Virus record (IMG/VR): IMGVR_UViG_3300005295_000043
Coordinates: 1 to 35,809 of that record
Direction: 5' to 3' (one strand)
DNA length: 35,809 nucleotides
DNA from: a virus
The position numbers were made by a program, and so were the translations under genes. A model generated the notes under the pieces. It saw only the letters and a program-made list of their open reading frames with translations, made no database searches and was not told the origin of the DNA. Positions 1-35,775 of this stretch are shown one piece after another. The stretch's first letter is position 1, and every line of letters starts with the position of its first letter.

Positions 1-1454
1 GGATCGCACGGAGCCGCCCGCCTGCAGCGAGACGATCGCTGCAGGCGGGCATCACTGACCGGCTGACCGCAAGCTGGACCGTCGCCGATCAGACGGTCAA
101 CATGTCGCTGCTGAAGACGCTGCGGGCCGCCCGTGCGCGCAGCCGCGATTTCGTGCTGAACAACGAATATGGGCGGAAATTCATCGCGCTTGTGCGCGCC
201 AACATCGTCGGCAGCGCCGGTGTTGTCCTGAAGGTCGACTGCCGGCGCGAAGATGGCACGCCGGATAAGCCGGACAGCGACAAGGTGCTGCGCGCCTTCG
301 TCCGCTGGGCGAAGCGAGGGCAGTGCGATGTCACCGGCAAGTTGAGCTGGGCGGCGGTTCAAAAGCTGATCATCGCCATGGTGGCGCGTGACGGCGAAGT
401 GCTGGTGCGCAAGGTCGAAGGTCGCGATCGCGGCATTCATCATTTCCAGCTGCAGATCCTTCCGGCGCATCTACTGCCGGAAGAGCTGAACCGGACCCTG
501 CAGAACGGCAACCGCATCCGCATGGGTGTCGAGCTGAACGGCGACAATCGGCCCGTAGCCTATTGGATACGGATCGAAAGCGGCAATGCTGACATGTATG
601 GTGCCAACGGTCAGCGTTACGCCCGCATTCCGGCGAGCGAGATTTACCATCTGTTCGTACCGGAAGATGGCGACCAATGGCGGGGCTACCCCTGGGCGGC
701 AACGTCGCTCCGCGGCGGCCGCCATCTGGATCAGTTCGAGGAAGCGGCGCTGATCGCGGCCAATGTCGGGGCGGCCAAGGCCGTCTTTTATCAGCAAAGC
801 GATCCCGATGCCGGTCCGCTCACTGCGCCGCAGAGCGAGGGTGAAAGCGAGACGGGCGACGACGTTGGCGAATTCGTAGAATCGGTCGAGCCCGGCATGT
901 CGAGCATCATCCCGATGGGATATGAGCTGAAAGAGTATAACCCGGCCTATCCGAACGAAGTGTTCGACCCGTTCGTCAAGGCGGTGCTGCGGAAGCTGGC
1001 CACTGGTTTGCTGACCTCATACCATAGCCTTTCTGGCGATCTGACGCAGGTCAGTTTCAGCTCGATCCGGCAAGGCACGCTCGACGATCGCGAGCAGTGG
1101 AAGATCATGCAAGCCTGGCTGATCGAGGACTTTCTAGAGCCTCTATTTGCGGATTGGCTGGCGCGCGCGCTGATGTTCGATACCGAGCTGCGCCAGCTGC
1201 CGGCATCGAAATTCGACAAGTTCAACGCGCCGGTCTTCCAGGGCCGGCGCTGGGATTGGGTCGATCCGAAATCGGATATCGCGGCCAACGAAGGCGCGGT
1301 CGGACTTGGCATCAAGAGCCGGGCACAGATCATCCGGGAGAATGGCGGCGATCCCGAGCAGGTTTGGGCGGAACTGGACGCCGAAAAGGCGCGCGGCTTC
1401 ACCATCACCAAAGCCCCGGCGCAAGCGCCGGCGGCTAATCCTGAAACCGAGTAA
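1..1454 (+). CDS. Phage portal protein (lambda-type), 5' end missing
   Basis: Forms the dodecameric portal ring through which DNA enters and leaves the capsid. The reading frame is open from base 3 with no stop, and residues before the first ATG (102) already fit the family (LTASW, then RARSRDFVLNN), so the true start lies left of the window and about 484 residues are visible. The N-terminal RARSRD-NN block, the WRGYPWA segment and the later LTSYHSLSGDLTQVSFSSIR segment are typical of lambda gpB-like portals. The C-terminus is Pro/Ala/Glu-rich. It stops at TAA 1452-1454, and the protease-capsid gene follows after 13 bases, as in lambda-type head operons. Terminase should lie just upstream. 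Confidence 0.93.
   Translation, partial: IARSRPPAARRSLQAGITDRLTASWTVADQTVNMSLLKTLRAARARSRDFVLNNEYGRKFIALVRANIVGSAGVVLKVDCRREDGTPDKPDSDKVLRAFVRWAKRGQCDVTGKLSWAAVQKLIIAMVARDGEVLVRKVEGRDRGIHHFQLQILPAHLLPEELNRTLQNGNRIRMGVELNGDNRPVAYWIRIESGNADMYGANGQRYARIPASEIYHLFVPEDGDQWRGYPWAATSLRGGRHLDQFEEAALIAANVGAAKAVFYQQSDPDAGPLTAPQSEGESETGDDVGEFVESVEPGMSSIIPMGYELKEYNPAYPNEVFDPFVKAVLRKLATGLLTSYHSLSGDLTQVSFSSIRQGTLDDREQWKIMQAWLIEDFLEPLFADWLARALMFDTELRQLPASKFDKFNAPVFQGRRWDWVDPKSDIAANEGAVGLGIKSRAQIIRENGGDPEQVWAELDAEKARGFTITKAPAQAPAANPETE
16..50. repeat. Perfect 15-bp inverted repeat within the portal gene
   Basis: Bases 16-30 and 36-50 are exact reverse complements separated by a 5-base loop (GACGA). The repeat includes the PstI-like CTGCAG core on both arms. 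It is inside coding sequence that still matches the portal family, so it is not obviously an assembly artefact. Its function is unknown. It would form a very stable hairpin in the late mRNA just before the conserved portal core. Confidence 0.6.
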
Positions 1455-8124: not shown

Positions 8125-8469
8125 ATGGCTGCCACGCAGCATATCAGCATCGGCGGGTTTCCGCCGCCCGGAAAAATCGTCCGCCTGTCGGGCGATGATT
8201 TCGCCGGATTGACACGGGCGGAAGCGCCCAAATTTCAGGCGCGGGAATGGCGTCGTGCATGGTTTCGCAATTGCGGCACGGTGGTCGCCCAGCAGGGTGG
8301 CCGCGCGCTTTTGGCCTTGTTCAGCGATGCCGCCCCACCGGCGCGGCAGGCGATTCGGAATGAATTGATCGACCAGCTGGCGGGCCGTCCCCGCCGGATT
8401 GGGGCGGTGATAGCGGCCTGCTTTGAAAAACAGATGGCCTTCGACACGATGGTTGGGGAACTGGCATGA
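8125..8469 (+). CDS. Conserved-looking small protein of unknown function
   Basis: 114 residues; AAGGAG lies 6 bases before ATG 8125, an excellent ribosome site. The sequence is basic in the middle (AREWRRAWFRNCG) with helical C-terminal half (ARQAIRNELIDQLAGRPRRIGAVIAACFEKQMAFD). No catalytic motif or membrane segment is seen. It overlaps the BRO-family gene by 4 bases (ATGA), so the two are translated together; a role linked to the antirepressor is possible but unproven. Confidence 0.78.
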   Translation: MAATQHISIGGFPPPGKIVRLSGDDFAGLTRAEAPKFQAREWRRAWFRNCGTVVAQQGGRALLALFSDAAPPARQAIRNELIDQLAGRPRRIGAVIAACFEKQMAFDTMVGELA

Positions 8470-9248
8470 ACGCGGTGGTGAGAAATTTCGGCTTCGGCGA
8501 GCAGTTAGTGCGTGCCGTCGATCGTGATGGTGAGGCGTGGTTCGTCGCTAATGATGTCTGCGCGGCCTTGGGAATCGATAACGCCCGTCAAGCGGTCTCC
8601 CGGCTCGACGATGATGAAAGGGATGGTGTCACTATTAGTGACGCCATCGGGCGCGAGCAGGAAACGACTATCGTTTCCGAGCCCGGCGTGTATCAACTCG
8701 TGTTTCGCAGCCGGAAGCCGTCGGCCAAGGCGTTCAAGCGCTGGCTGGCGCATGAAGTGATCCCGGCGATCCGCAACACGGGCCGCTATGAAATCCCGCG
8801 GCCGTCGAACGACGGCGGTGATGAAGCGATGTTCGTCCCGTATCTCGGCACGGCTGACGATCGCGACTCGATCCGGGTGGCGCAGATGATCATCCGCAAC
8901 GCCGAACGGCTCTACGGTCCGGAAGCGGGGCGGCAATATTGGGCTAAGCTTGGCTTCCCGGTGCCATCAGTGGATCTGCCGCCTTCGGCTTATGCGACGG
9001 CAAGCGATCCTCGGCCGCAGTCGATGCCGACGGAAGGCAGCGTCATGGCGTGGGCGATGGCGTGCGGCGTGAACCCGACGCGACGGGATGCCACGCATCT
9101 GCGGGAATGCTTCGCGAGCTACGAGCTTTGGGCGGCGAGGAATGGCTACTGGATCATGCCGGTCGAAAAATTCTCGCGCTCGATTAAGACGATCTTCGGG
9201 ACGGAAGAGCATCCCGAAATGATCAGGGTCATCATCACCCGCAAGTAA
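8466..9248 (+). CDS. BRO-N domain antirepressor-like protein
   Basis: 260 residues. Residues 1 to about 105 are a BRO N-terminal DNA-binding domain (WFVANDVCAALGIDNARQAVSRLDDDE, VSEPGVYQLVFRSRKPSAKAFKRWL, VIPAIRNTGRYE). The C-terminal 70 residues (MAWAMACGV, RECFASYELWAARNGYWIMPVEKFSRSIKTIFG) resemble the winged-helix tail found after D5/P4-type helicases. Such proteins commonly bind or counteract phage repressors. It is unusual that this one lies within the tail gene block, on the + strand after a divergent promoter region, rather than with the early genes. Confidence 0.87.
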   Translation: MNAVVRNFGFGEQLVRAVDRDGEAWFVANDVCAALGIDNARQAVSRLDDDERDGVTISDAIGREQETTIVSEPGVYQLVFRSRKPSAKAFKRWLAHEVIPAIRNTGRYEIPRPSNDGGDEAMFVPYLGTADDRDSIRVAQMIIRNAERLYGPEAGRQYWAKLGFPVPSVDLPPSAYATASDPRPQSMPTEGSVMAWAMACGVNPTRRDATHLRECFASYELWAARNGYWIMPVEKFSRSIKTIFGTEEHPEMIRVIITRK

Positions 9249-16735: not shown

Positions 16736-18316
16736 ATGGCGCTCTCGATCTCCAACCTCGGTGCCGGCCACGCCAACAGCACGAACAGCGGGACGAAGAG
16801 CCTTACGGCGACGCCGTCGAGCGCGGGCCGGCTGATCGTCGTCTTCACCGGCCACACGGGCTATTCCGGCTCGACCGCCCCGACCGACGACCAGGGCGGC
16901 ACCTATTCGCTGATCTGTGGCGCCGTGAAGAACGGCAGCGCCGACAAGTTGGAGGCGTGGGTCCGCGACCAACTCTCGCCGGCGGTATCGATGACGATCA
17001 CACATGCGCCGGGGGGCACGAGTGGCGGCTTCATCGCGGCGCAGCAGGTCAATAATATCAGCAAGGCGGGCCTGGACGCGATCGTCCAATATGCGACGGA
17101 GGATAACCAGAGCGCGGGCACGCCGGCGCCGACGTTCGGCGCAGCGGCGCAGAGCGCAAACGGCATCCTCGGGGTGCTGTTCAATGCCACCAATCCTTCG
17201 GGGATGACGGCGCCTTCCGGCTATACCGAGAGCTTCGACAGCGGCTATTCGAGCCCCACCACGGGTTATGAGGTTGCCCGACGCAACTCGGGTGAGACGG
17301 GCACGGCGATCAGCTGGGGAAGTTCCTCAGCCTCGGTGTTCTGCTCGATCGTGCTTGAGATCGACGCAAGCCAGGGCGGCCCGGCTGGACGTGCCGACGA
17401 AACCGATGCCGCGCTTGCGCTGGCGGCGGTACAGAGCACAGCGGCCGGGCTGGCGAGCGGATCGGAAACCGCCCTCGCTCTGGCGGCGGTCCAGATCGCG
17501 GGCGTCGGGCGCGCTGATGAAAGCGACAGCGCGCTGGCGCTCTCGACCGGGCAGGGCGGCGTCGCCGGGCTGGCGGAAGAGAGCGATGCAAGCCTTGCGC
17601 TGGCGGCCGTGCAGGCCCTTGCAGCGGGACTGGCGAGCGCGACGGATAGCGCCGCGGCGCTCGGATCGGCCCGCCCCGTCGGATCAGCTGGCGAGACGGA
17701 CGCCGCGCTCGCGCTGGCGGCTGTCCAGGCCGCTGCCGTCGGGCTCTCGACCGAAGCCGACAGCGGTTTCGCGCTGGCGGGGGTGCAGCGCGCCGCCGTC
17801 GGACTGGCGACCGAAACGGGAAGCACCCTCGCGCTGGGCGGCGTGCAGATTCGCGCGGCCGCGCTCGCTGGAACATCGGATATCGCGTTGGCGCTTGCGG
17901 CGGTCCAGATCGGCGACGCCGGGCTGGCGAGCGAAGCCGACAGCGCGCTGGCGTTGCCGTCCACGCTGGGGGGGGCCGCCGGGCGTGCCGACGAAAGCGA
18001 TGCCGCGCTGGCGCTGGTGGCGGTCCAGATCCGCGCGGCCGGGCTTGTGGTCGAAACCGACAGCGCCCTGGCGCTTGCCGCGGTCCAACTTGTCGCCGTC
18101 GGGCTGGCGGCGGTCAATGACAATGCGCTGGCGCTGGGCAGCGCGTCGCCGGCCGGGCTCAGCAGCGAGACGGACTTCGCGCTCGCATTGACGGGCGGCG
18201 GGACCGTGGAACCGCTGCCCGAGCGCCGCCACCGGCCGAATACCTGGCGCGATCGAAAATGGGTGAAGGATCGGCTTCACCCGTGGCGGCCGCAATCGGG
18301 GGTGCTCGGCTGGTAG
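16736..18316 (+). CDS. Adhesin-like protein with fourteen 20-residue repeats
   Basis: 526 residues. Residues 1 to about 215 form a Gly/Ser/Thr-rich beta domain (PSSAGRLIVVFTGHTGYSG, SIVLEIDASQGG). Residues about 217-489 are fourteen degenerate copies of a 20-residue unit, consensus AGLAxETDSALALAAVQxxA. The tail is basic and Trp-rich (RRHRPNTWRDRKWVKDRLHPW), possibly a docking segment. The regular period suggests an elongated repeat stalk exposed on the tail. ATG 16736 has only a weak ribosome site (GGGCGG) upstream. Confidence 0.78.
   Translation: MALSISNLGAGHANSTNSGTKSLTATPSSAGRLIVVFTGHTGYSGSTAPTDDQGGTYSLICGAVKNGSADKLEAWVRDQLSPAVSMTITHAPGGTSGGFIAAQQVNNISKAGLDAIVQYATEDNQSAGTPAPTFGAAAQSANGILGVLFNATNPSGMTAPSGYTESFDSGYSSPTTGYEVARRNSGETGTAISWGSSSASVFCSIVLEIDASQGGPAGRADETDAALALAAVQSTAAGLASGSETALALAAVQIAGVGRADESDSALALSTGQGGVAGLAEESDASLALAAVQALAAGLASATDSAAALGSARPVGSAGETDAALALAAVQAAAVGLSTEADSGFALAGVQRAAVGLATETGSTLALGGVQIRAAALAGTSDIALALAAVQIGDAGLASEADSALALPSTLGGAAGRADESDAALALVAVQIRAAGLVVETDSALALAAVQLVAVGLAAVNDNALALGSASPAGLSSETDFALALTGGGTVEPLPERRHRPNTWRDRKWVKDRLHPWRPQSGVLGW
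17384..18202 (+). repeat. Tandem 60-bp coding repeats (about 13.6 units)
   Basis: The DNA repeats with a 60-bp period in register with the reading frame, each unit encoding 20 residues around (E/S)(T/S)DxALALAAVQ. Units keep the amino-acid pattern while many third positions differ, so the array is old or under protein-level selection. Two units are short by one or two residues (near 17645-17690 and 18110-18150). Confidence 0.85.
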
Positions 18317-18357
18317 CCGCGCGCGCTGACGCTCAATTTTTTCAACGGGAGACAGAT

Positions 18358-18840
18358 ATGCAAAGCGCCATAGGCTGGCCGCTCGCCCGGAATCGCATCC
18401 GGCGCGGGGCGGTCTCGAACACCTTCGGCATGGTACGGCACCAGGCCAATGGTGCGCCGCGCGCGCATCAGGGCTGGGATTTCGAGGCGCCGATCGGCAC
18501 GGCCTGCTTTGCCATCGCCGATGGGCGGGTCGCGCTGATCTATGACAGCAAGGATTATGGCCGGGTTGCCGTGCTGTCCTTCCTGTTCGAAGGGCGCGAG
18601 CTGTTCGCCGCCTATGCGCATCTGAGCGCAGTCGAAGTGGCGCAGGGCGAGGCGGTTCGAAAAGGCCAGTGCATCGCGCTGACCGGCGACAGCGGCAACG
18701 CGCGTGGGATGACCGGGCCGGATCTCCATCTGCATTTCGAGATCCGTACCGAGCCGCGGCCGGGGCGCGGGCTCGCGGGGCGGCTCAGTCCGTTGCACGT
18801 CTTCGGCGAAGTGCCGCTGAAAAAGGCGATCGAGGCATGA
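18358..18840 (+). CDS. M23 family (LytM/lysostaphin-type) endopeptidase
   Basis: 160 residues from ATG 18358, which follows ACGGGAGACAGAT; the in-frame ATG at 18259 lies inside the adhesin gene. The zinc-site residues are present: H37 and D41 (HQGWDFEAPIGT), H88 (AYAHLS) and H124/H126 (LHLHFEIR). M23 enzymes cut peptidoglycan cross-links. It has no signal peptide, so it could act as the endolysin once holins open the membrane, or be carried on the virion. It overlaps the next gene by 4 bases. Confidence 0.9.
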   Translation: MQSAIGWPLARNRIRRGAVSNTFGMVRHQANGAPRAHQGWDFEAPIGTACFAIADGRVALIYDSKDYGRVAVLSFLFEGRELFAAYAHLSAVEVAQGEAVRKGQCIALTGDSGNARGMTGPDLHLHFEIRTEPRPGRGLAGRLSPLHVFGEVPLKKAIEA

Positions 18841-19730: not shown

Positions 19731-20146
19731 TGCTGGCGAAGCTTGTCACGGGGGCGGGCGCCATCGCGCTCGCCCTCTTTCTCGCCTGGATGTACGGCAA
19801 CGCGCGCTATGACGCCGGCAAGCTGGCCGAGCGGGATGCGTGGCACGTCGCCTCGATCGATGCCGAACGGCAGCGCGGCGACGAACGGATCGCCGACTAT
19901 GCGAGGGGTGCCGCTGCTGTCGGCCATTATGCCGATCAGGTCGGCGCACTCGCGGCCTCCGCGCTCAAATCTCAGATGACTGTGAGGGATTATGCTCAAA
20001 CCGCTGCTGGGCGCGTGCAGTGCCTTTCTGCTGACCGGGTGCTTGGGATTGACGCGGACGCCGCCGGCCTCGGTTTCTTCACGCCCTCAACCGCCCCAGG
20101 CCGTGACGGAACGCTGCACGCGGACGCCGATCGCGCGCAACCCTGA
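19730..20146 (+). CDS. Rz: Inner-membrane spanin (Rz-like)
   Basis: 138 residues. A single N-terminal transmembrane helix (residues about 4-22, GAGAIALALFLAWMYG) is followed by a periplasmic charged helix (DAGKLAERDAWHVASIDAERQRGDERIADYARG). This is the type II membrane layout of i-spanins. Identity rests mainly on architecture and on the lipoprotein gene nested in its 3' half in the +1 frame, the classic Rz/Rz1 arrangement. It would pair with Rz1 to fuse inner and outer membranes at lysis. Confidence 0.8.
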   Translation: MLAKLVTGAGAIALALFLAWMYGNARYDAGKLAERDAWHVASIDAERQRGDERIADYARGAAAVGHYADQVGALAASALKSQMTVRDYAQTAAGRVQCLSADRVLGIDADAAGLGFFTPSTAPGRDGTLHADADRAQP

Positions 20147-20255
20147 CGGTTCGCTGGCGAGCTGGCAGGCCGAACAGGCGCTTCGCGCCCGCGATCGCGA
20201 CCTGAAGGCTTGCGACGACAAGCGCCAGCTCGCGGTCGATGCCTGGCCGAACTGA
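19992..20255 (+). CDS. Rz1: Outer-membrane spanin lipoprotein (Rz1-like), overlapping Rz
   Basis: 87 residues. The N-terminus MLKPLLGACSAFLLTGCLG is a lipoprotein signal with lipobox LLTGC (Cys17 would be lipidated). The next part is Pro-rich (TRTPPASVSSRPQPP), as in Rz1 proteins, then a short helix (ASWQAEQALRARDRDLKACDDK). It begins inside Rz in the +1 frame and runs 109 bases past the end of Rz. This partly nested form is known for spanin pairs. Confidence 0.82.
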   Translation: MLKPLLGACSAFLLTGCLGLTRTPPASVSSRPQPPQAVTERCTRTPIARNPDGSLASWQAEQALRARDRDLKACDDKRQLAVDAWPN

Positions 20256-21342: not shown

Positions 21343-21729
21343 TCAGGCTGGCGTTCGCAGTGCCGCGCGCGCCGCATCCGAGAGGAAGCGCGAGCGGTTG
21401 CCCGCGACGCGATCGATCGCGGCCAGCAAGCCTTCGTCGAGCATGACGTTGACCCTGACGGCCTTGCCGGGACGCTCTGCCCGAACGAGGATGCGCGCGA
21501 CTTCGTCCACTTCCGGATCGGCCTCGATCGCATCAAGCTCGGATGGATCGGCGAGCTTATCGCCATGTTCGGCCGAAACGAGCAAATGACCGTCAAGGGC
21601 CTGCTCGGCGTTGCGCGCGGCTTCCTGTACGGTGGCGCCAGCTGAGGCGCAGCCGGGAAGATCCGGGAAAAACACGCTGTATCCGTCGGCTGCGCGTTCG
21701 ACGATCGCTGGATAAAAAACGGTGGCCAT
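21343..21729 (-). CDS. hicB: HicB antitoxin
   Basis: 128 residues. Residues 1-60 are the HicB RNase-H-like fold (YPAIVERAADGYSVFFPDLPGC, GATVQEAARNAEQAL). The C-terminus (RVNVMLDEGLLAAIDRVAG, RSRFLSDAARAAL) is a ribbon-helix-helix DNA-binding domain. AGGAGG lies 5 bases before ATG 21729, a strong site that would favour antitoxin over toxin. It follows hicA by 38 bases. HicB neutralises HicA and normally represses the operon. Confidence 0.92.
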   Translation of the reverse strand: MATVFYPAIVERAADGYSVFFPDLPGCASAGATVQEAARNAEQALDGHLLVSAEHGDKLADPSELDAIEADPEVDEVARILVRAERPGKAVRVNVMLDEGLLAAIDRVAGNRSRFLSDAARAALRTPA

Positions 21730-21767
21730 TACTGCCTCCTGTGTGGTGGTTACATTGGGGCGGGCTC

Positions 21768-21956
21768 TTATCTGAGCTTCACCCCGCTTTGCTTCTCGAT
21801 ACTCTTGAGCGTCCCGATCGCCATGTCCGCCTTCGGGTGCGGAACGGTGACTGTGCCGCCCTTGGTATGGTGCCGGAATTGCTTGTGGCTTCCGGACTGG
21901 CGAACCTCGAACCATCCATCTTTTTCGATCTTCTTGATGACTTCGCCGCTACGCAT
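21768..21956 (-). CDS. hicA: HicA mRNA interferase toxin
   Basis: 62 residues, the usual HicA length. The dsRBD-like fold and catalytic His are visible: GEVIKKIEKDGWFEVRQSGSHKQF (H24), then GGTVTVPHPKADMAIGTLKSIEKQSG. HicA cleaves mRNA when free of HicB. ATG 21956 was chosen because an earlier in-frame start adds 19 residues outside the family; AAGGGCGGC gives a moderate ribosome site. Beside attP, the pair could act as an addiction module or as an anti-phage device. Confidence 0.92.
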   Translation of the reverse strand: MRSGEVIKKIEKDGWFEVRQSGSHKQFRHHTKGGTVTVPHPKADMAIGTLKSIEKQSGVKLR

Positions 21957-21972
21957 CTTGCCGCCCTTTCGA

Positions 21973-22033
21973 TACACATCATATACACACTCACGGAAGC
22001 GCGCGCAAGCCAAATCTACACACTAGCTACACA
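21973..22033 (-). promoter_or_regulatory. hicAB promoter region with four phased TACACA repeats
   Basis: TACACA on the + strand (TGTGTA on the transcribed side) occurs at 21973, 21984, 22017 and 22028, spacings 11, 33 and 11 bp, so all copies face the same side of the helix. A candidate -10 (TATATG/TATGAT) lies among them. HicB's RHH domain is the obvious candidate ligand; integrase or Xis binding to the attP arm is the alternative. Confidence 0.5.
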
Positions 22034-22061: not shown

Positions 22062-22271
22062 TTTAACCCATGGTGGTTTCTGGCGCAGATTTCCGTGCAC
22101 CACTACCGGCCACATTTTGGATAAGCGCCATTGATTCTAGGGCAGATTTCCTGTCCACGGCGAAAACACGGGTTCGAGTCCCGTTGGGGTCACCAGCCGC
22201 AGAAATCCGTGGGTATAGGTAAGCGGCACTGCCGCAGTTTAACCCACCTTGGCGATCTGATTTAACCCACC
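22062..22271. other. attP region: tRNA identity segment flanked by two sets of direct repeats
   Basis: Three 13-bp direct repeats near GCAGATTTCCGTG start at 22085, 22142 and 22199, exactly 57 bp apart; copies 1 and 3 match at 11 of 13 positions. A second motif, TTTAACCCA, occurs at 22062, 22238 and 22261 (the last two extend to TTTAACCCACC). The tRNA 3' end lies between repeats two and three. The layout of core plus arm-type sites next to int fits an intact attP. Confidence 0.7.
22168..22195 (+). other. 3' end of a tRNA gene (att core identity segment)
   Basis: ACGGG-TTCGAGT-CCCGT (22168-22184) is a perfect T-arm, followed by a 7-base acceptor strand TGGGGTC, discriminator A and CCA. No D-arm, anticodon arm or matching 5' acceptor strand (GACCCCA) precedes it, so this is not a whole tRNA. 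It would restore the 3' end of the host tRNA gene after integration. The amino-acid identity cannot be read from this part. Confidence 0.82.
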
Positions 22272-23330
22272 CAATTGAATGAGGGTGCCGGAGCGGACGC
22301 TTTCGGCCGCTGTCTTGGCGATCATCAGCGCCCTCGCCCGCTTGCCATAATGGCGCACCATCTTAGGCGACATGCCGAGCATCGAGCCGATCTGATTGTC
22401 GCTCAAGCCCAGCTCCAAAAGGTAGCAGCAGGCATTCTTGCGAAGGCCGTGAAGCACGAAATCGGTGTCCGGTTTGACCGTCTCGCGTGCGACCATGTCG
22501 GCGATCACTTCCTGCACCGCCTCATGCGCCATCAGGGCGCGGATGCGGCTTTGCACGGCGCCAGTGGTGCCGAACGGCTTGCCTTGGCGATCATAGACGA
22601 GTGTGACCGACCGGCGCGGAAGCCGTGCCAGCTCTTCCTTCCAGAGTGGATGCAAGGGGATCGAGACGGGAACGCCTGTCTTCTGCTGCTCGAACGACAT
22701 GATATCGTCCTGGATCCAGCCATATTGCATCCGGATGATATCGCTGTTGCGCTGGCCCGAGCATAGCGCGGTTGCGACCAGCATCCGCGTCATGGGCGTG
22801 GCAACCTCGAAGGCGACGCGCAGCAGATCGGCCGGCCATGGCTCATATTCGCCGATCGCCAGCGCCTTGATCCCGGCCGCCGGGTTGTGCGCGATCCAAT
22901 CGATCTTGCACGCGTGACCCATCAGGAGGCGGAAGACGGTCAGCCAGTTATTGGCCTTTCCCGGCGTCTCGGCCATGGTGTCGCGCATCTTATAGACGTG
23001 CGCAGGCCGGACCTGCTTGACCAGGCGGTGGCCGTGCTTCTCGCCGATCATGTCGAGATAGCGCAGATAGTTGGACACGGTCTCGCTGCTTTCGACATTC
23101 TTGAATTCGGCGCTGCCGCGGAAATCCTCGATCAGCGCGCCGATGCTTTCAGGCACTGGCGGCAGGCGTTCGGGCACGGCCTGGGGCTCATGCAGCGCCT
23201 TATAGGTTGGCCAGAATTCGGGATCGTCGAGCGCCGGCAGGCGATGATAGACGCGCTTCCCGCCGACGCGGTGACGGTAATAATTGAGCCCCTGCGATAT
23301 GTAGAGGTTGGGAATCAAAGGTCGGCCCAT
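22239..23330 (-). CDS. int: Tyrosine-family site-specific integrase
   Basis: 363 residues. An N-terminal arm-binding part (residues 1-55, YRHRVGGKRVYHRL), a core-binding helical part to about 160, and a catalytic part with R194 (GQRNSDI), K217 (QQKTG), H294 and R297 (HGLRKN) and nucleophile Y328 (VRHYGKRA). The second His/Trp normally in LGH is replaced by M320 (SMLGMSP). Its 3' end runs into the attP repeats, and its start overlaps the Xis-like gene by 16 bases. It should integrate the phage at a tRNA 3' end. Confidence 0.93.
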   Translation of the reverse strand: MGRPLIPNLYISQGLNYYRHRVGGKRVYHRLPALDDPEFWPTYKALHEPQAVPERLPPVPESIGALIEDFRGSAEFKNVESSETVSNYLRYLDMIGEKHGHRLVKQVRPAHVYKMRDTMAETPGKANNWLTVFRLLMGHACKIDWIAHNPAAGIKALAIGEYEPWPADLLRVAFEVATPMTRMLVATALCSGQRNSDIIRMQYGWIQDDIMSFEQQKTGVPVSIPLHPLWKEELARLPRRSVTLVYDRQGKPFGTTGAVQSRIRALMAHEAVQEVIADMVARETVKPDTDFVLHGLRKNACCYLLELGLSDNQIGSMLGMSPKMVRHYGKRARALMIAKTAAESVRSGTLIQLGGLNQIAKVG

Positions 23331-25522: not shown

Positions 25523-26272
25523 TCAGACGGCCATCAAATCCGACGGCGTCATGACGCGGTGGACGGCGCCGACCTCGCGGATATCGAGACGAAAAATGCC
25601 GGCAGGCTGAAACTGCTCCAGCTCGATATAATTGGCGGTTCGGCGGATCAGCCGCTTGATGACGGCCGTGACAAACTCGCTGCCTTCTTCGTCATGCCGC
25701 ATCAGCTGAACGATCACATAATCGCCGAGCGACGCCGGCCGGCGGGGATCGACATAGATCGGCTCGCCCTGCTCATACCGCGGGGACATCGAATCGCCGA
25801 CGATGTAGAGCCCGTAAACGTCATCACGGCCGACCAGCACAGGCGGCCGGCGCAGATAATCGACGACATCGCCGGGCTCGTATGTCGTCGTTGCGACCGT
25901 GATTGGGTGATCTCCATTGCGGCTCAGATCGTGGCCCTGGGCGGTGCCATAGACAGGCACGTCCCGCGGCAGCTCGCGCGGGCGAAAGGGCACAGGCGGC
26001 TCGCGCAGCTGGACATCCCTCGCAGGCTCGCGCTGCTCGACAATGCGGCCGCCCTTGGCGGCTTCGAACTGCGCGAGGGTGACGCCGACCGCGTCAAGGA
26101 TGCGTTCGAGATTATCGGAGCGCGGCACCTTGCCGATTTTCAGATTATAGATTGCAGCGCGGCTGACGCCGGCTTTCTTGGCCCAATCCCGATCGGACAA
26201 CCCATCGGGCCGGAAGCTGTCGACGATCCGAAACAGCTCGGAAACGTCAGGATTTTGCGACTTTTCTGACAT
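25523..26272 (-). CDS. Phage repressor (HTH plus S24/LexA-like peptidase domain)
   Basis: 249 residues from ATG 26272. Residues about 12-70 are a helix-turn-helix domain (GLSDRDWAKKAGVSRAAIYNLKIGK). Residues about 105-240 are an S24 domain with S161 (GDSMSPRY) and K206 (AVIKRL). The expected Ala-Gly cleavage dipeptide is not seen; the region reads VPVYGTAQGHDL. No ribosome site precedes ATG 26272, which suggests a leaderless message; an alternative ATG at 26326 would translate the operators. It should bind the GACACCT operators and hold lysogeny. Confidence 0.9.
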   Translation of the reverse strand: MSEKSQNPDVSELFRIVDSFRPDGLSDRDWAKKAGVSRAAIYNLKIGKVPRSDNLERILDAVGVTLAQFEAAKGGRIVEQREPARDVQLREPPVPFRPRELPRDVPVYGTAQGHDLSRNGDHPITVATTTYEPGDVVDYLRRPPVLVGRDDVYGLYIVGDSMSPRYEQGEPIYVDPRRPASLGDYVIVQLMRHDEEGSEFVTAVIKRLIRRTANYIELEQFQPAGIFRLDIREVGAVHRVMTPSDLMAV

Positions 26273-26361
26273 GACACAAATATGGGCCAAATTGGTGTCA
26301 TAGGTAATCGCACTTATAGGTGTCATTTCCTCTTGAAGTGAGATCTAAAGGTGTCTATCAG
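26272..26361. promoter_or_regulatory. Right control region: divergent promoters and operators
   Basis: It separates the repressor from the Cro-like gene. On the minus strand, 26356-26339 matches the left operator at 14 of 18 positions and 26325-26308 at 13 of 18; further half-sites are at 26294-26300 and 26272-26277. A rightward promoter TTGAAG (26333-26338), 17 bp, TATCAG (26356-26361) has an operator filling its spacer, and its predicted start lies almost at the Cro ATG. Confidence 0.7.
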
Positions 26362-28876: not shown

Positions 28877-29052
28877 GCATCCGGCTTCAAGACGCGGAGA
28901 TCGAGGCGCTGTGCAAGGTGGTGAAGGCCGCACTTGAACGCGCCGGCGTGCCGGAGATCGGCGAAGTATTCACCGGGCCACGCCACAATGAAGTTGGGTT
29001 CGAGACAAAGGACGGCGGGCATGTCGTCTTGTCGATGCGGGGGGCTATATGA
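28873..29052 (+). CDS. Small protein preceding the sliding clamp gene
   Basis: 59 residues in ATGA overlap with the genes on both sides (28873 and 29049). It has a helix (DAEIEALCKVVKAALERAGV) followed by a beta hairpin (NEVGFETKDGGHVVLSM). Unknown function. The tight coupling suggests it is produced at levels similar to the clamp. Confidence 0.68.
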   Translation: MSIRLQDAEIEALCKVVKAALERAGVPEIGEVFTGPRHNEVGFETKDGGHVVLSMRGAI

Positions 29053-30236
29053 TCAGTATAAGTAACGGCGACTTTCGGCGTGCAGTGGCGATCGCCGCGT
29101 CTGTTGTCGAAAAACGCACCACTATCCCGATCCTCTCGGGCGTTCGCTGCATAGCGAATGGCCATTTCGAGGCTTCGGGAACTGACCTGGACATGTTGCT
29201 GAAAGCGCGCACGGCACGCGGCGGCGAAGGCGAGGCGCGCTTCATGCTGCCGAACCCGCGGGCGCTGGTTGCCGCGATCGGTGCCGTCGGTGGGGCGGAC
29301 ATCGCCATCACGCCCGATGCGAACGCCGGCGTCGCGCTGGATGCGAATGGCTTCGTCGCCAAGTTCAGAAGCGACGCAGTCGGGTTTGTCGACGACTGGC
29401 CCGAGACCGGTTTCGCAATCGCTGAAGAAAGCTTCACGGCTACGCTAGGCGCCGACCATCTTCGCCAGCTCGCGCGACTGCAAAGCGCGATATCGACCGA
29501 AGAAACCCGCTATTATCTCAACGGCGTCCATATCCGCCACCTCGATGGCTGGACCTATCGCGCGGCCGCGACTGACGGGCACCGGCTGTTGGTCGCTGAT
29601 CTGGCATGGCCGGATGCCGTCGGTACGCTGCCCGAAGAGGGCATCATCATCCCGCGGCGCGCGCTCGAAAGGCTCCTGGATCTCGGCAAGGGCGATCAGC
29701 CGGTGGCGCTGGTGGCCGGCCCTACCGTGCTGCTGAACGCGGTCGATAGCACCACGCCCGAAAAGCCGGCGGCGTGGCGATTTCGCTTCGCGGGCGAACA
29801 GCGCAAGATCGGCTGGGAACTAACGCTGAAGCTGATCGAGGGCAAATATCCCGATTATGCGCGCGTGATCCCGCAGAATTGCGGCCACAAAGCATTGATG
29901 GCAGCCGCGGATCTGAAACGCGCGGTGCGTGCCGTCTCGGCCGGCACGGAAAGCAAGCGCACGCCAGCCATGAAGTTCGTATTCGCCGCTGATCGGGTGA
30001 CCGTTTCGGCTGAATGGCATGATTTTGGCGGATCGGCGTCGATCGATTTCCCATGCCAGCATGACCTGCCGCTGAATTTCACCGTCGGCTACAATGGCCG
30101 TTACTTGCTCGACATGCTCGACGCCATTCGCGGCAACGAACTGGCGTTCGGGATTACTGACACCACCGGCCCGGCCTTGATCCGTAACCCTAGCGACAGC
30201 GCCTTTTTCGGCGTGCTGATGCCGATGCGCGTTTGA
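29049..30236 (+). CDS. dnaN: DNA polymerase III beta subunit (sliding clamp), phage-encoded
   Basis: 395 residues, close to the usual 370-390. Clamp hallmarks run in order: RAVAIAASVVEKRTTIPILSGV near the N-terminus, ASGTDLDM, STEETRYYLNGVHI, AAATDGHRL, LKLIEGKYPDYARVIP, FTVGYNGRYLLDML and the final LMPMR. It should form a dimeric ring on DNA and tether host or phage polymerase and repair factors. Full-length bacterial-type clamps are uncommon in phages of this size. It heads the replication block of the rightward operon. Confidence 0.92.
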   Translation: MISISNGDFRRAVAIAASVVEKRTTIPILSGVRCIANGHFEASGTDLDMLLKARTARGGEGEARFMLPNPRALVAAIGAVGGADIAITPDANAGVALDANGFVAKFRSDAVGFVDDWPETGFAIAEESFTATLGADHLRQLARLQSAISTEETRYYLNGVHIRHLDGWTYRAAATDGHRLLVADLAWPDAVGTLPEEGIIIPRRALERLLDLGKGDQPVALVAGPTVLLNAVDSTTPEKPAAWRFRFAGEQRKIGWELTLKLIEGKYPDYARVIPQNCGHKALMAAADLKRAVRAVSAGTESKRTPAMKFVFAADRVTVSAEWHDFGGSASIDFPCQHDLPLNFTVGYNGRYLLDMLDAIRGNELAFGITDTTGPALIRNPSDSAFFGVLMPMRV

Positions 30237-30260: not shown

Positions 30261-30602
30261 ATGGGTACGGTTGTGGTTTGTGGGCCGCCTGCATGCGGCA
30301 AAACGCGAAACAGCGGGCACCTTTTGCGGATGTTTGGCGCTGCGGCTGTCGTGGATGGATGGGACGCCAAGCGGCACCGGTTGGAGCCGGACTGTGTTCA
30401 TTTGACAACGTTATCGCGCGAGGCCGTTCAGCGGGCGGGCGTGAGTTGCAAAATCGTCAACTTCACTGATCTCAAGTTGCCAATAGATGCGCAGCGGGCG
30501 GATTACATGGCCTTCCACCATCCGCAAAGTAAAAGATGGTCATCCAGCGCCCCCGCGAAGCCTTACCTGCTTGAGGGGCGTTTAGGCGCAGGCTGCGCAT
30601 AA
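30261..30602 (+). CDS. Small P-loop protein
   Basis: 113 residues; GGAGAG lies 4 bases before ATG 30261. [15 protein letters not shown] is a Walker A motif (K14, T15), which starts as in small kinases or clamp-loader-like ATPases. There is no clear Walker B, and at 113 residues it is shorter than a complete nucleotide kinase. The C-terminus is Ser/Pro-rich with little conserved character. It may be a degenerate or minimal kinase; a role next to the clamp and SSB is suggestive only. Its stop overlaps the SSB start. Confidence 0.65.
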
Positions 30603-31057
30603 TGGCCGGTTCAGTGAATAAAGTCATCCTGGTCGGCAATCTTGGCCGCGATCCGGAATCGCGCAGCTTTCAGAGCGGCGGCAAGGTGGTGAACCTCCGC
30701 GTCGCCACGTCCGAAAGCTGGAAGGATCGCGCGACCGGCGAGCGGCGCGAAAAGACCGAGTGGCATTCGGTGGCCATCTTCAACGAAGGCATTGCGACTG
30801 CCGCCGAGCGTTACTTGCGCAAGGGCAGCAAGGTCTATCTCGAAGGCCAGCTGCAGACGCGCAAATGGACCGATCAGCAGGGCGTGGAGCGCTACACCAC
30901 CGAAGTGGTGCTGCAGGGCTTCAACGCGAAGATGGTGCTGCTCGATCGTGCCGAGGGCGGCGATCGCAGCGCCGGCGCTGGAGCATCGTCGGGCGGTTCG
31001 AGCCGCCAGGATTTCGACCCCTTTGGCGGCGATCTCGATGATGATGTGCCCTTCTAG
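30602..31057 (+). CDS. ssb: Single-stranded DNA-binding protein
   Basis: 151 residues with a complete SSB OB fold: [82 protein letters not shown] Gly/Ser-rich linker leads to the acidic tip DDDVPF, the conserved hook for replication and repair partners. It coats ssDNA at phage forks. The retained tip suggests it can recruit host proteins. Confidence 0.95.
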
Positions 31058-31518: not shown

Positions 31519-31805
31519 GCGCGGTCTATGTCCTGCACTTCGAGCCGCCCTTCAAGCATGCGCGGCATTATGTCGGCTGGACCGATCAGGAAGATATCGC
31601 GGCGCGGCTTGACGAACATCTGAAGGGCCGGGGCTCGCGCCTGGTCAAGGCGGCCGTGGGCGCCGGCGTGAAGGTGGAAATCGCGCACGTCATCATTGGC
31701 GCTGACCGCAACTTCGAACGCAAGATCAAGAGAAGCACCGATGTCTGCCGCTGGTGCCGCCTCTGTGGCCGCAATGAACGCAAGGTTCCGAAGGTGGCGA
31801 AGTGA
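31515..31805 (+). CDS. GIY-YIG nuclease-like protein
   Basis: 96 residues starting at TTG 31515 (GGAGG 8 bases upstream; TTGA overlap with the preceding stop). VYVLHFEPPFKHARHYVGWTDQ replaces GIY/YIG with VYV/HYVG, followed by IAARLDEHLKGRGSRLVKAA (Arg and His of the family) and E in RNFERKIK. The C-terminus has a CRWC-LC cluster that may bind zinc. It is either a small active endonuclease or a DNA-binding relative; it is not inserted in another gene, so it is not an obvious homing element. Confidence 0.72.
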   Translation: MSAVYVLHFEPPFKHARHYVGWTDQEDIAARLDEHLKGRGSRLVKAAVGAGVKVEIAHVIIGADRNFERKIKRSTDVCRWCRLCGRNERKVPKVAK

Positions 31806-32677
31806 TCGAGCGCGGTCCTGACGGATATCTCGTCAACCATTGGCCAACCCTCAGTGCGCCGGTGAGTGATGCAACGGGCCGGTTTCTTTCGTTGGGCGCT
31901 GGCGTGCAATCTAGCACGTTGGCCCTCATGGCTGCCCGAGGTGACATCGGCCCAATGCCCGATGCTGCCATATTTGCAGATACGGGCTGGGAGCCACCGG
32001 CCGTTCTCCGGCATTTGGATTGGTTAGAAACTCAGCTTCCATTTCCGGTCTATCGGGTTAGCTCGGGCAACATCCGAACGGCGATCGTCGAAGGTAAGAA
32101 TAGCACCGGGCAGCGGTTCGCATCGGTCCCGTGGTTCATACGCAACCCCGATGGATCGAAAGGCATGGGTAAGCGCCAGTGCACCAAGGATTTTAAATTG
32201 GTGCCGATCAAGCGAAAGGTGCGCGAGCTGATTGGCTACCTGCCTCGGCAGCGTATCTCTGCTGGCATACGCGTCGAACAGTGGATTGGGATTTCGACCG
32301 ATGAAGTAGTGAGAATGAAGCCTTCCTTTGATCGATGGACAATCAATCGCTGGCCTTTGATCGAAGCGAATATGGATAGAAACGCGTGCCTTAAGTATTT
32401 GGAAGAAAGACAATACCCAACTCCGCCTAAATCTGCCTGCATAGGCTGCCCCTTCCATACAAATGCAATGTGGCGCGCGATGCGAGATGAGGCGCCAGCG
32501 GATTTCGCTGATGCGGTGTTGATCGATCGTGCGCTGCGCGAGGGCCAGTTCTATAAGATGCGTGGCCGTGAATACATGCACAGCTCCCTGCTGCCACTTG
32601 ATGAAGCACCCCTAAACGACGTTGATCCCGACCAGCTTGGCTTCGACCTCGACTGTCAAGGGATGTGCGGGAATTGA
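31802..32677 (+). CDS. PAPS-reductase-like (N-type ATP pyrophosphatase) phage protein
   Basis: 291 residues from GTG 31802 (GTGA overlap). The PP-loop-like SLGAGVQSSTLALMAARG is followed by DAAIFADTGWEPPAVLRHLDWLE, YRVSSGNIR, QCTKDFKLVPIKRKVREL, WIGISTDEVVRMK, NRWPLIE and ACIGCPFH, with a final CQGMC. This matches the phage family annotated as phosphoadenosine phosphosulfate reductase, whose members may adenylate a substrate or help modify nucleic acid or a base; the true reaction is unknown. Codon use is visibly more AT-rich than its neighbours, suggesting recent transfer. Confidence 0.85.
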   Translation: MIERGPDGYLVNHWPTLSAPVSDATGRFLSLGAGVQSSTLALMAARGDIGPMPDAAIFADTGWEPPAVLRHLDWLETQLPFPVYRVSSGNIRTAIVEGKNSTGQRFASVPWFIRNPDGSKGMGKRQCTKDFKLVPIKRKVRELIGYLPRQRISAGIRVEQWIGISTDEVVRMKPSFDRWTINRWPLIEANMDRNACLKYLEERQYPTPPKSACIGCPFHTNAMWRAMRDEAPADFADAVLIDRALREGQFYKMRGREYMHSSLLPLDEAPLNDVDPDQLGFDLDCQGMCGN

Positions 32678-35600
32678 ACGCTCCGACCATTCCATCGCCA
32701 ATGGGATCGGCAGCGCTGCAATATGCGCGGGCGGGCTGGCCTGTGTTCCCGTGCCGCGAAAGCGACGGTGCGCCCTACACCAACGCCAAGGGCGAAGAGA
32801 AGATTCCGCGCTGCAAGTCGCCTTATGTCGGCAATGGCGTGAAGGATGCCACCACGGACGAAGCGGTCATCACCGAATGGTGGCGGCGCTGGCCGAACGC
32901 GCAGATCGGCGCCGCCATGGGGCGCAACGGGCTCTTCGCGCTCGATTTCGATCCGCGCGTCGACCAGGAGACCGGCGAAGTCTGGACGCTCGAAAGCCTG
33001 AAGGCCAATCTTGAAGCGATGCTCGGCTGTCCGGTTCCGGTCAGCCTGGTGGCCGTGACGCCCTCGGGCGGGGTGCATGTCTATCTGAAGCAACCGCGCG
33101 ACGATGCCGGCGAGATCCGCAACCGCGGCGTGCTGCCCGATCATGTCGACGTGCGCGGCCGTGGCGGTTACGTCATCGCGCCGCCCAGCAACAGCCTCGG
33201 CGGCGAGAATGCGGCCGCAGGGCGCTATCGCTGGCTGGCTGGTCGCCAGGATATCGAGCCGGCCGAAGCGCCGGCCTCGCTGATCGAGATCCTTCGCCTT
33301 TCAAGCAAGGCGGCCGTGATCGAGCTGCTGCGCGGCCGCGGGCATGGTGACGATCTGTTCGATCGGCTTTGGACGAAATGGCCGAAGAGCGCTGCAGCGC
33401 AGCCCGCGCCAGGCGCGCAGGCGCAGCGGCCGACGATCGTCCCCGATGCCAATGAGGCGGTGCGCGCCTATGCGTTGAAGGCGCTCGATCGCGAGATCGC
33501 GGAGCTGCGCGGTTCGGTCCAGGGCACGCGCAACAATAATCTGAACGCGTCATCCTACGCGCTGGGCCAGCTGGTCGGCGCCGGCGCGCTCGACGAAGCG
33601 ATCGCGCGGACGATGCTTGAAGCTGTCGCGCGCGAATGGCCGGATTTCACCAAAAGCCAGGGCACGATTGAAAACGGCCTTAGCGCGGGCATCGCCGTGC
33701 CCCGCGATCTCAGCGAGGTGCGCGAGAATGCCGAGCGGCGTGCCGAGAACGCCCAGCGCCGCGCCGCATCGGGCGGCAGCTTCGGCAGTGGCTGGCGTGA
33801 TTTCGCCCCGCCTCCCGACGAGGCTCCGGCCGCGTCCGCCCCGCACCCCGCTGCGGCGGTGCCGCAAGCAACGGCAAGCTTCCAATCCGGAAGGGTGGAA
33901 CGTCTCTCCGATCAGCCGGTGGCGGTGCGGGGACGGCTGAAGGCCGTGGCGGCGAAATGGCTGGAAAAGCGCATTGCCGGCACCGTGGACGCGCTCGACA
34001 CGGCCGACAGCAAGGCCGACCTGGTGAAAAAGCTCGCTTTCACCATCGGCCTCCGCGTTGGCGCCGGCCTGGTCGACGAAACGGCCGCCATGCTGGCGCT
34101 GGACGATAAGTTCGGCTTCGTCGACGGGCTCGATCCGAACGACGTGAAAGCATCGCTCCAAGCTGGCGCGCAGAAGCCGCTCGACCTTGGTCCGATGCTC
34201 ATCATGATGCGATGCGCGGGCTATCCTTTGACGGATCTCGGCAATGCCGAACGGTTCCGCGAGCGCTACGGCCGCGATTTCCGCTACACCACGGCCAAGG
34301 GCTGGCTGAAATGGGACGGGCGCCGCTGGAAGGTGCTCGATCAGGAGAAGGACAAAGCGCCGGCCGAAGTGAAGGCGGCCGTCCACGATACCATCCGCGC
34401 CATCCAGCAAGAGGGCTGGTTCGTGCGCGATACCGGCTTCCAGGACGAAGATAATCCGTATGGCATGGATGAGCTGATCCTGGTCGGCAAATCCAACAGC
34501 ACGACGCAAAGCGCACTGCTGCGCAAATGGGGGCGCACGTCGGAATCGTCGGGCAAGCTGGGGTGCATCGCCGGCCTGGCCGAACGCTGGCTGACGGTGC
34601 TGATCACGGATTTCGATCAAAATCCGATGATGCTCAATTGCGAGAACGGCACGCTGCATTTCATTCGGCCGGATGATCGCGGCTCCGGCCGGGTCGAGCT
34701 GCATCCGCACAATCGCGAAGACATGCTGACGAAGATGGCAGCCTGCGCCTATGATCCTGACGCCAAGGCGCCGGAATTCGAAAAGCTGGTGCACTGGGCG
34801 CAGCCGAAGGCCGATCGCCGCCGCTACCTGCAGCAATGGGCCGGTTACAACATGACCGGCGAGATGGGCGCGCAGATCTTCCATATCTGGTGGGGGCCGA
34901 CGGCCGCCAACGGCAAATCGACCGTCGGCAACCAGCTGCGCGAAGCCGTGGGCGACTATGGCGATATTACCAATGTCGAAACCTTCCTGGACGAAGGCCA
35001 GAAGAAACGCGGCGACCAGGCCACGCCCGATATCGTGCGCCTGCCCGGCGTGCGTTTCCTGACCTCGGGCGAGCCGCCAAAGGGCGCGAAGATCAACGAA
35101 GCCTTGATCAACAGCGTGACGGGCGGCGATCCGATGCTGGCACGCGATAACTTCCGCAGCTTCTTCCGCTTCTCGCCATCGTTCAAATGGACATTGTGGT
35201 GCAACGCCAAGCCCGAAATTCCGAAGGGCACCGAGGGCATCTGGCGGCGCGTCAAGGTGTTGCTATGGGAATCGCACCTGGAGCCGCACGAGCGCGACGA
35301 AACGCTGCCGTCGCGCCTGCGCAAGGAATATGCCGGCACGCTCGCCTGGATGGTGCGCGGGCTGATCGACTGGATGGACAACGGCTTCACTGAGCCTGAC
35401 GACGTGAAGGCGCAGAGCGAAGCCTATCGGGCCGACAGCGACCCGCTCGCTAGCTTCCTGCGCATGTGCACTGTCGAAGATCCGCAATCGCGCGTGCAGT
35501 CCAGCCACCTTTACGAAGTCTTCTGCGCCTGGGCCAAGGCCGCCGGCGAGGCCGAGTGGCGGCAGAAGGGCTTCAGCCAGGCGATGAAGGATCGCGGCTT

Positions 35601-35775
35601 CGACAACAAACAGTCGAACGGGATGCAATGGCTCGGGCTGCGCCTGGTCAAGCAGGTGGCCGACTTCATCGACAGCGAGGGCAAGGTGGTGACGATGGCG
35701 GCCGATCAGCCGCCACCTGATCGAAGGCAGGCGCGCGACCCCTTTGACCCCGTCGACGATGACGAGGTGATTTGA
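32674..35775 (+). CDS. Primase-polymerase / D5-type SF3 helicase fusion
   Basis: About 1033 residues from TTG 32674, which overlaps the preceding stop (TTGA) and follows AAGGGA; GTG 32665 is too close to that site, and ATG 32701 is a reasonable alternative. Residues about 10-200 are a prim-pol domain (LQYARAGWPVFPC, FALDFDPR with catalytic Asp pair, SGGVHVYLK, DVRGRGGYVIAPPS). A linker leads to a D5_N region and an SF3 helicase with Walker A GPTAANGKST (K748), VRFLTSGEPP and sensor NAKPEIP. The C-terminal winged helix reads SHLYEVFCAWAKAAGE. One protein would unwind and prime phage DNA. Confidence 0.93.
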   Translation: MNAPTIPSPMGSAALQYARAGWPVFPCRESDGAPYTNAKGEEKIPRCKSPYVGNGVKDATTDEAVITEWWRRWPNAQIGAAMGRNGLFALDFDPRVDQETGEVWTLESLKANLEAMLGCPVPVSLVAVTPSGGVHVYLKQPRDDAGEIRNRGVLPDHVDVRGRGGYVIAPPSNSLGGENAAAGRYRWLAGRQDIEPAEAPASLIEILRLSSKAAVIELLRGRGHGDDLFDRLWTKWPKSAAAQPAPGAQAQRPTIVPDANEAVRAYALKALDREIAELRGSVQGTRNNNLNASSYALGQLVGAGALDEAIARTMLEAVAREWPDFTKSQGTIENGLSAGIAVPRDLSEVRENAERRAENAQRRAASGGSFGSGWRDFAPPPDEAPAASAPHPAAAVPQATASFQSGRVERLSDQPVAVRGRLKAVAAKWLEKRIAGTVDALDTADSKADLVKKLAFTIGLRVGAGLVDETAAMLALDDKFGFVDGLDPNDVKASLQAGAQKPLDLGPMLIMMRCAGYPLTDLGNAERFRERYGRDFRYTTAKGWLKWDGRRWKVLDQEKDKAPAEVKAAVHDTIRAIQQEGWFVRDTGFQDEDNPYGMDELILVGKSNSTTQSALLRKWGRTSESSGKLGCIAGLAERWLTVLITDFDQNPMMLNCENGTLHFIRPDDRGSGRVELHPHNREDMLTKMAACAYDPDAKAPEFEKLVHWAQPKADRRRYLQQWAGYNMTGEMGAQIFHIWWGPTAANGKSTVGNQLREAVGDYGDITNVETFLDEGQKKRGDQATPDIVRLPGVRFLTSGEPPKGAKINEALINSVTGGDPMLARDNFRSFFRFSPSFKWTLWCNAKPEIPKGTEGIWRRVKVLLWESHLEPHERDETLPSRLRKEYAGTLAWMVRGLIDWMDNGFTEPDDVKAQSEAYRADSDPLASFLRMCTVEDPQSRVQSSHLYEVFCAWAKAAGEAEWRQKGFSQAMKDRGFDNKQSNGMQWLGLRLVKQVADFIDSEGKVVTMAADQPPPDRRQARDPFDPVDDDEVI

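Follow-up and report, generated by a model that had tools for sequence, protein, structure and literature searches.

A tRNA-Glu(UUC) 3'-end attachment site, probably in unintegrated order, in a temperate tailed phage of alphaproteobacteria

The window analysed in this work covers an entire IMG/VR virus record, which has 35,809 bp and is classified as linear; its genes are ordered as portal, capsid, tail, M23 peptidase and spanin, HicAB, the att region, integrase, repressor, DnaN, SSB and primase. Its left end is occupied by a portal protein gene (3..1454, + strand; PF05136) whose N-terminus is cut by the contig end, and its final gene encodes a prim-pol/D5 primase-helicase identified by profile matches (32665..35775, + strand); the initial annotation had expected a terminase at this right end, which was not found there. 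The lysis genes encode an M23 peptidase (18259-18840) and an Rz-like spanin (19992-20255), and further right lie those of a HicB-like antitoxin (21343..21915, - strand; PF15919, E 3.3e-21) and a HicA toxin (21768..22013, - strand; PF07927, E 2.3e-21). Beyond the att region and the integrase are a CI-like HTH/S24-peptidase repressor (25523..26326, - strand; PF00717, PF01381), consistent with a temperate lifestyle, as well as a phage-encoded DNA polymerase III beta clamp (DnaN-like, 29049-30236), a single-strand binding protein (30602-31057) and a PAPS-reductase-like protein (31802-32677; phrog_424) whose gene adjoins the primase. Two further features were observed in the left part of the window, namely an anti-repressor (Ant/Bro-like) domain protein within the tail gene block (8466-9248), and tandem repeats with a 60-bp period (17374-18135) within an open reading frame (16736-18316) placed right before the M23 peptidase gene. 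Gene annotation agrees with the earlier statement that phage genes stand on both sides of the att region. This region had been placed between lysis and integrase genes; the integrase is indeed its right neighbour, but its left neighbour is the HicA/HicB pair, with the lysis genes lying further left.

Within this region, a 40-nt segment (22156-22195, + strand) reproduces without mismatch the 3' stretch of tRNA-Glu(UUC) that runs from the third anticodon base through the CCA, and complete tRNA-Glu(ttc) genes contain it exactly, as expected of an attP core that copies a host tRNA 3' end. The tRNA was identified by comparison with alphaproteobacterial genomes: 8 of 398 genomes, all from one bacterial order, contain the exact 40-mer, always within a complete tRNA-Glu(ttc) gene beginning with GGCCCCATCGTCTAG. 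The acceptor strand TGGGGTC of the window agrees with this start, and other genomes of the same order have an acceptor stem formed by GGCCCCT with AGGGGTC. No complete tRNA was found in the window with ARAGORN; a T-arm, acceptor strand and CCA lacking the rest of a tRNA had been recognized previously, although the block starts at 22156, in the anticodon, and not at 22168 as then proposed. Anticodon-stem identity was present in 5/5 attR or attP sites that had been retrieved with a pattern starting only at the T stem; since identity extends back through the anticodon stem in all of them, the crossover probably takes place near the anticodon loop, at the left edge of the identity block. An Rfam match to mascRNA-menRNA (E 0.055, below gathering) was taken as a chance tRNA-like match. 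A hairpin following the CCA was also considered as a replacement tRNA terminator; it folds with z < -2 in three of four relatives and z of -1.9 in the fourth, but this role was discarded for the window phage because its own hairpin reaches a z of only -0.6.

The gene next to the core (22239..23330, - strand), whose adjacency to the tRNA segment had been pointed out initially, encodes a tyrosine recombinase of 363 aa. Its profile match places it in the integrase family (phrog_1, E 3.5e-29), with a PF00589 score slightly below the Pfam cut-off (E 1.5e-5), and the catalytic R, HxxR and Y residues are present in the alignment within SGQR, HGLRK and VRHY. Single-sequence integrase patterns gave no match when scanned against IMG/VR and genome contigs, and relatives were found instead by a scan for the tRNA 40-mer and by whole-genome searches. 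Three of the related integrases (L115, L117 and L121) display HGLSKNA where the others have HGLRKNA, that is, a Ser replacing the Arg of HxxR, and all three are associated with the TTTCCCACA arm motif described below.

The IMG/VR scan, in which the 40-mer had to be exact with R and H allowed at two positions, retrieved ten contigs, and in all ten the adjacent gene encodes a protein related to the window integrase (36-63% identity across the aligned part), bearing in mind that these relatives were collected via the core itself and are not independent of each other. Nine of them, like the window, have no complete tRNA, L120 alone carrying a complete tRNA-Glu. Since every contig with the 40-mer carries a related integrase beside it, the comparison provides strong evidence for 22156-22195 as the attachment core.

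Integrated relatives were recovered from bacterial genomes, integrase homologs at E < 1e-40 being present in 7 of 398, all from the same bacterial order. These elements are roughly 45 kb long and are bounded by a complete tRNA-Glu on one side and a 3' remnant on the opposite side, the arrangement expected from recombination at an attP of this kind. In G606, a complete tRNA-Glu(ttc) at 803094 is followed by the integrase gene, and the 3' remnant lies 44.8 kb away at 847895; in G483, the tRNA-Glu(ttc) at 2971266 also precedes the integrase gene, and the remnant, 45.9 kb away at 3017146, stands immediately before a tRNA-Glu(ctc). The ttc and ctc tRNA genes are found in tandem in two uninterrupted sites (L137, L138), and recJ is the neighbour gene preceding the tRNA in L120 and G656. 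No bacterial genome carrying the exact window phage was found, so that no attL and attR of this phage itself were observed; the closest structural relatives (G001-G005) have no PF00589 integrase and are therefore uninformative on the att site. A separate arrangement was observed in G738 (contig C1, 2413451-2502072), where the remnant and the complete tRNA-Glu are 88.6 kb apart with TTTCCCACA arms, and the integrase relative lies 12 kb inside the element, hence perhaps corresponding to nested or tandem elements.

The flanks of the core contain a 9-bp sequence, TTTAACCCA, at three places and nowhere else in the window, in agreement with the initial count of a short sequence occurring three times outside the 13-bp repeats discussed below. 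The putative left arm-type site (22062..22070, + strand) starts at -94 from the core and constitutes the longest left/right repeat of this attP; the two putative right sites start at +43 (22238..22246, + strand) and +66 (22261..22269, + strand) after the CCA, and the integrase stop codon falls inside the first of these, the middle copy. A thrice-repeated 9-mer arose by chance in 0.6% of 3000 first-order Markov simulations, for a pattern chosen post hoc. For comparison, we gathered 13 attPs (the window, seven IMG/VR contigs, contig C158 of G656, and four obtained from the attL/attR flanks of G606, G483, G738 and G420), and searched each for the longest direct repeat common to the left and right flanks, a comparison designed after the flanks had been seen. 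Repeats of arm type were found on both sides of the core in 12 of the 13, as in heterobivalent systems: the left copy starts between -92 and -97, and right copies mostly between +37 and +67, with relatives showing matching repeats at -94, +43 and about +65. One right copy starts at +77 in L114, and in G606 two further repeats at other positions tie in length. The arm sequences themselves vary by member (TTTAACCCA, TTTCCCACA, CGTCCCCC, TTTACCCCC, GTTCCCCCA and TTTGGCAAT), and their similarity tracks integrase relatedness overall, with no extra link to the integrase N-terminal domain after controlling for the catalytic domain (partial Mantel p ~0.12). Because fixed position, changing sequence and left/right agreement all fit arm-type sites, the three TTTAACCCA copies are likely arm-type integrase sites. 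An exact IHF-like site is present in 7 of the 13 attPs, six at -78 and one at -79, with a chance of about 0.3% per shuffled flank; none with one mismatch or fewer was found in the window attP flanks, so that an IHF site between arm and core, as in a lambda-like intasome, is absent from the window.

Three 13-bp repeats (22085..22097, 22142..22154 and 22199..22211, + strand) had originally been regarded as surrounding arm-type sites, in which case the TTTAACCCA copies would be incidental. Their spacing of exactly 57 bp was confirmed, but the copies are imperfect, the other two having 3 and 2 mismatches to copy 1. Three equally spaced 13-mers this alike appeared in only 0.03% of 3000 first-order Markov simulations, again for a pattern chosen post hoc; nevertheless, the triplet is absent from 12/12 related attPs, whose matching repeats sit at the TTTAACCCA positions instead, and for this absence the 13-mers were not accepted as arm sites. 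Moreover, copy 2 lies immediately left of the core and copy 3 immediately right of the CCA, while copy 1 overlaps -78 to -66, where many relatives hold the IHF-like site, which makes this assignment very unlikely. An even less probable explanation, to which we give almost no weight, is that the segment represents a decayed tRNA or remnant within phage DNA, with no integration function: this would account for the missing complete tRNA, but neither for the related integrase adjacent to the 40-mer in all ten contigs nor for the relatives integrated at the tRNA-Glu gene.

The junction of two tandem prophages at one tRNA-Glu would likewise produce a 3' remnant by the integrase gene with phage genes on both sides, and tRNA genes are known to harbour tandem arrays (PMC4383910). 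This alternative, raised by the initial annotation, appears to be realised in one assembly of our set: in G656, contig C158 displays a remnant and an integrase gene, lacks a tRNA and has tail genes to the left, and contig C216 carries tRNA-Glu and another integrase. The left arm of C158, TTTGCCCCC, agrees with the arms of the C216 phage but differs from the right arms on C158 itself (GTTCCC), this site being the single outlier for arm match among the 13 attPs; as such a mismatch is what two different phages would give, this locus (L191, ~11944) is likely the junction of two different prophages at tRNA-Glu. In the window, by contrast, the three arms are all identical to TTTAACCCA, which disfavours a junction of two different prophages; in addition, the window does not reach the length of one genome unit, and each of the main phage genes occurs only once in it. 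Two identical tandem prophages would yield the same sequence as the window. On balance, a tandem junction is unlikely here, and we consider, with a probability of roughly 90%, that 22062-22271 corresponds to an attP in unintegrated order, belonging to a temperate tailed alphaproteobacterial phage.

This unintegrated order holds because the order of genes in the window is that of an integrated relative, circularly permuted. The prophage of G406 (L120) reads recJ, tRNA-Glu, integrase, DnaN, primase, TerL, portal and major capsid protein (MCP), and the window represents a cycle of this type cut between primase and portal, its primase having 41% identity to the gene that precedes TerL and portal in G406. 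The earlier claim of an intact attP in a genome of unintegrated order was thereby upheld, integrated relatives having tRNA-Glu by the integrase gene and the remnant at the far end. Given that the left and right halves of attP are still contiguous, late genes lying to the left and the integrase and early genes to the right, we infer that what was assembled was phage DNA in a free, circular or packaged state. L003, L004 and L084 carry primase and portal in collinear arrangement, with 4.28-4.36 kb of DNA without match to the window between the points matching the window ends. In L002, whose portal is 90% identical to that of the window and begins further upstream than the cut one, the portal is preceded by TerS, TerL and a head-tail joining gene. 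These comparisons suggest that the window lacks some 4.3 kb between primase and portal, including the terminase genes, and that the complete circle would measure about 40 kb. Circular closure, which the initial annotation had proposed to look for, was not seen, as no end repeat was found in the 35,809 bp.

According to the mechanism that these comparisons suggest, the integrase would bind the core copying the 3' part of the host tRNA-Glu(UUC), and would be held by distal arms, namely the TTTAACCCA copy at -94 to the left and the pair at +43 and +66 to the right. The attP would recombine with the host tRNA-Glu gene, which adjoins recJ in relatives; the host would be left with an entire tRNA-Glu, its 3' part now supplied by the phage, and the 3' remnant displaced in the process would mark the far prophage end. 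The system resembles lambda-type heterobivalent tyrosine integrases with tRNA 3'-end sites in its catalytic residues, its core and distal arm repeats, the tRNA 3' end within attP, the adjacent integrase gene and the remnant at the far prophage end. Phage lambda has five arm sites, whereas members of the window family have one on the left and usually two on the right; further differences from lambda-type systems are that arm sequence differs among relatives at fixed positions and that the window attP is without an exact IHF-like site. Islander elements of tRNA genes, whose end points are a regenerated tRNA gene and a displaced 3' fragment, and for which the anticodon loop is one of the main classes of integration sublocation (PMC4383910), share with this family those end points and, probably, that sublocation and the tandem arrays; the window, however, shows the unintegrated form and hence contains no end points. 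The L120 prophage of G406 (IMG/VR, 40,475 bp, from an isolate genome) has a 59% identical integrase, the exact 40-nt core and the same order of integrase, DnaN and primase, but is integrated by recJ and tRNA-Glu; its arm motif is GTACCCCC, and the best matches of its TerL and portal are phrog_9 and phrog_12, whereas the TerL of L002 matches phrog_15 and the window portal phrog_21.

The window attP is thus of the ordinary tRNA 3'-end type, a well-understood kind that is now well documented here with related phages and real insertions. The integration target is fixed as tRNA-Glu(UUC) with a GGCCCCA/TGGGGTC acceptor stem, which narrows the host range, and arm match versus mismatch offers a simple sequence test to discriminate between a genuine attP and the junction of two different prophages. 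More tentatively, and with somewhat more doubt than confidence, we propose that this integrase family targets a single tRNA-Glu 3' end with position-fixed arms that change in concert, arm identity acting as a private address; if so, different phages could share one attB, sit in tandem and excise independently. The 13 attPs, with arm repeats diverging at fixed positions, constitute a comparative set for the evolution of arm specificity. As a separate observation, the HicA/HicB pair (21343-22013, minus strand) lies directly left of attP and would therefore be placed at the far prophage end once integrated, possibly as addiction cargo; in L115, a DNA methyltransferase occupies the place of HicA/HicB.
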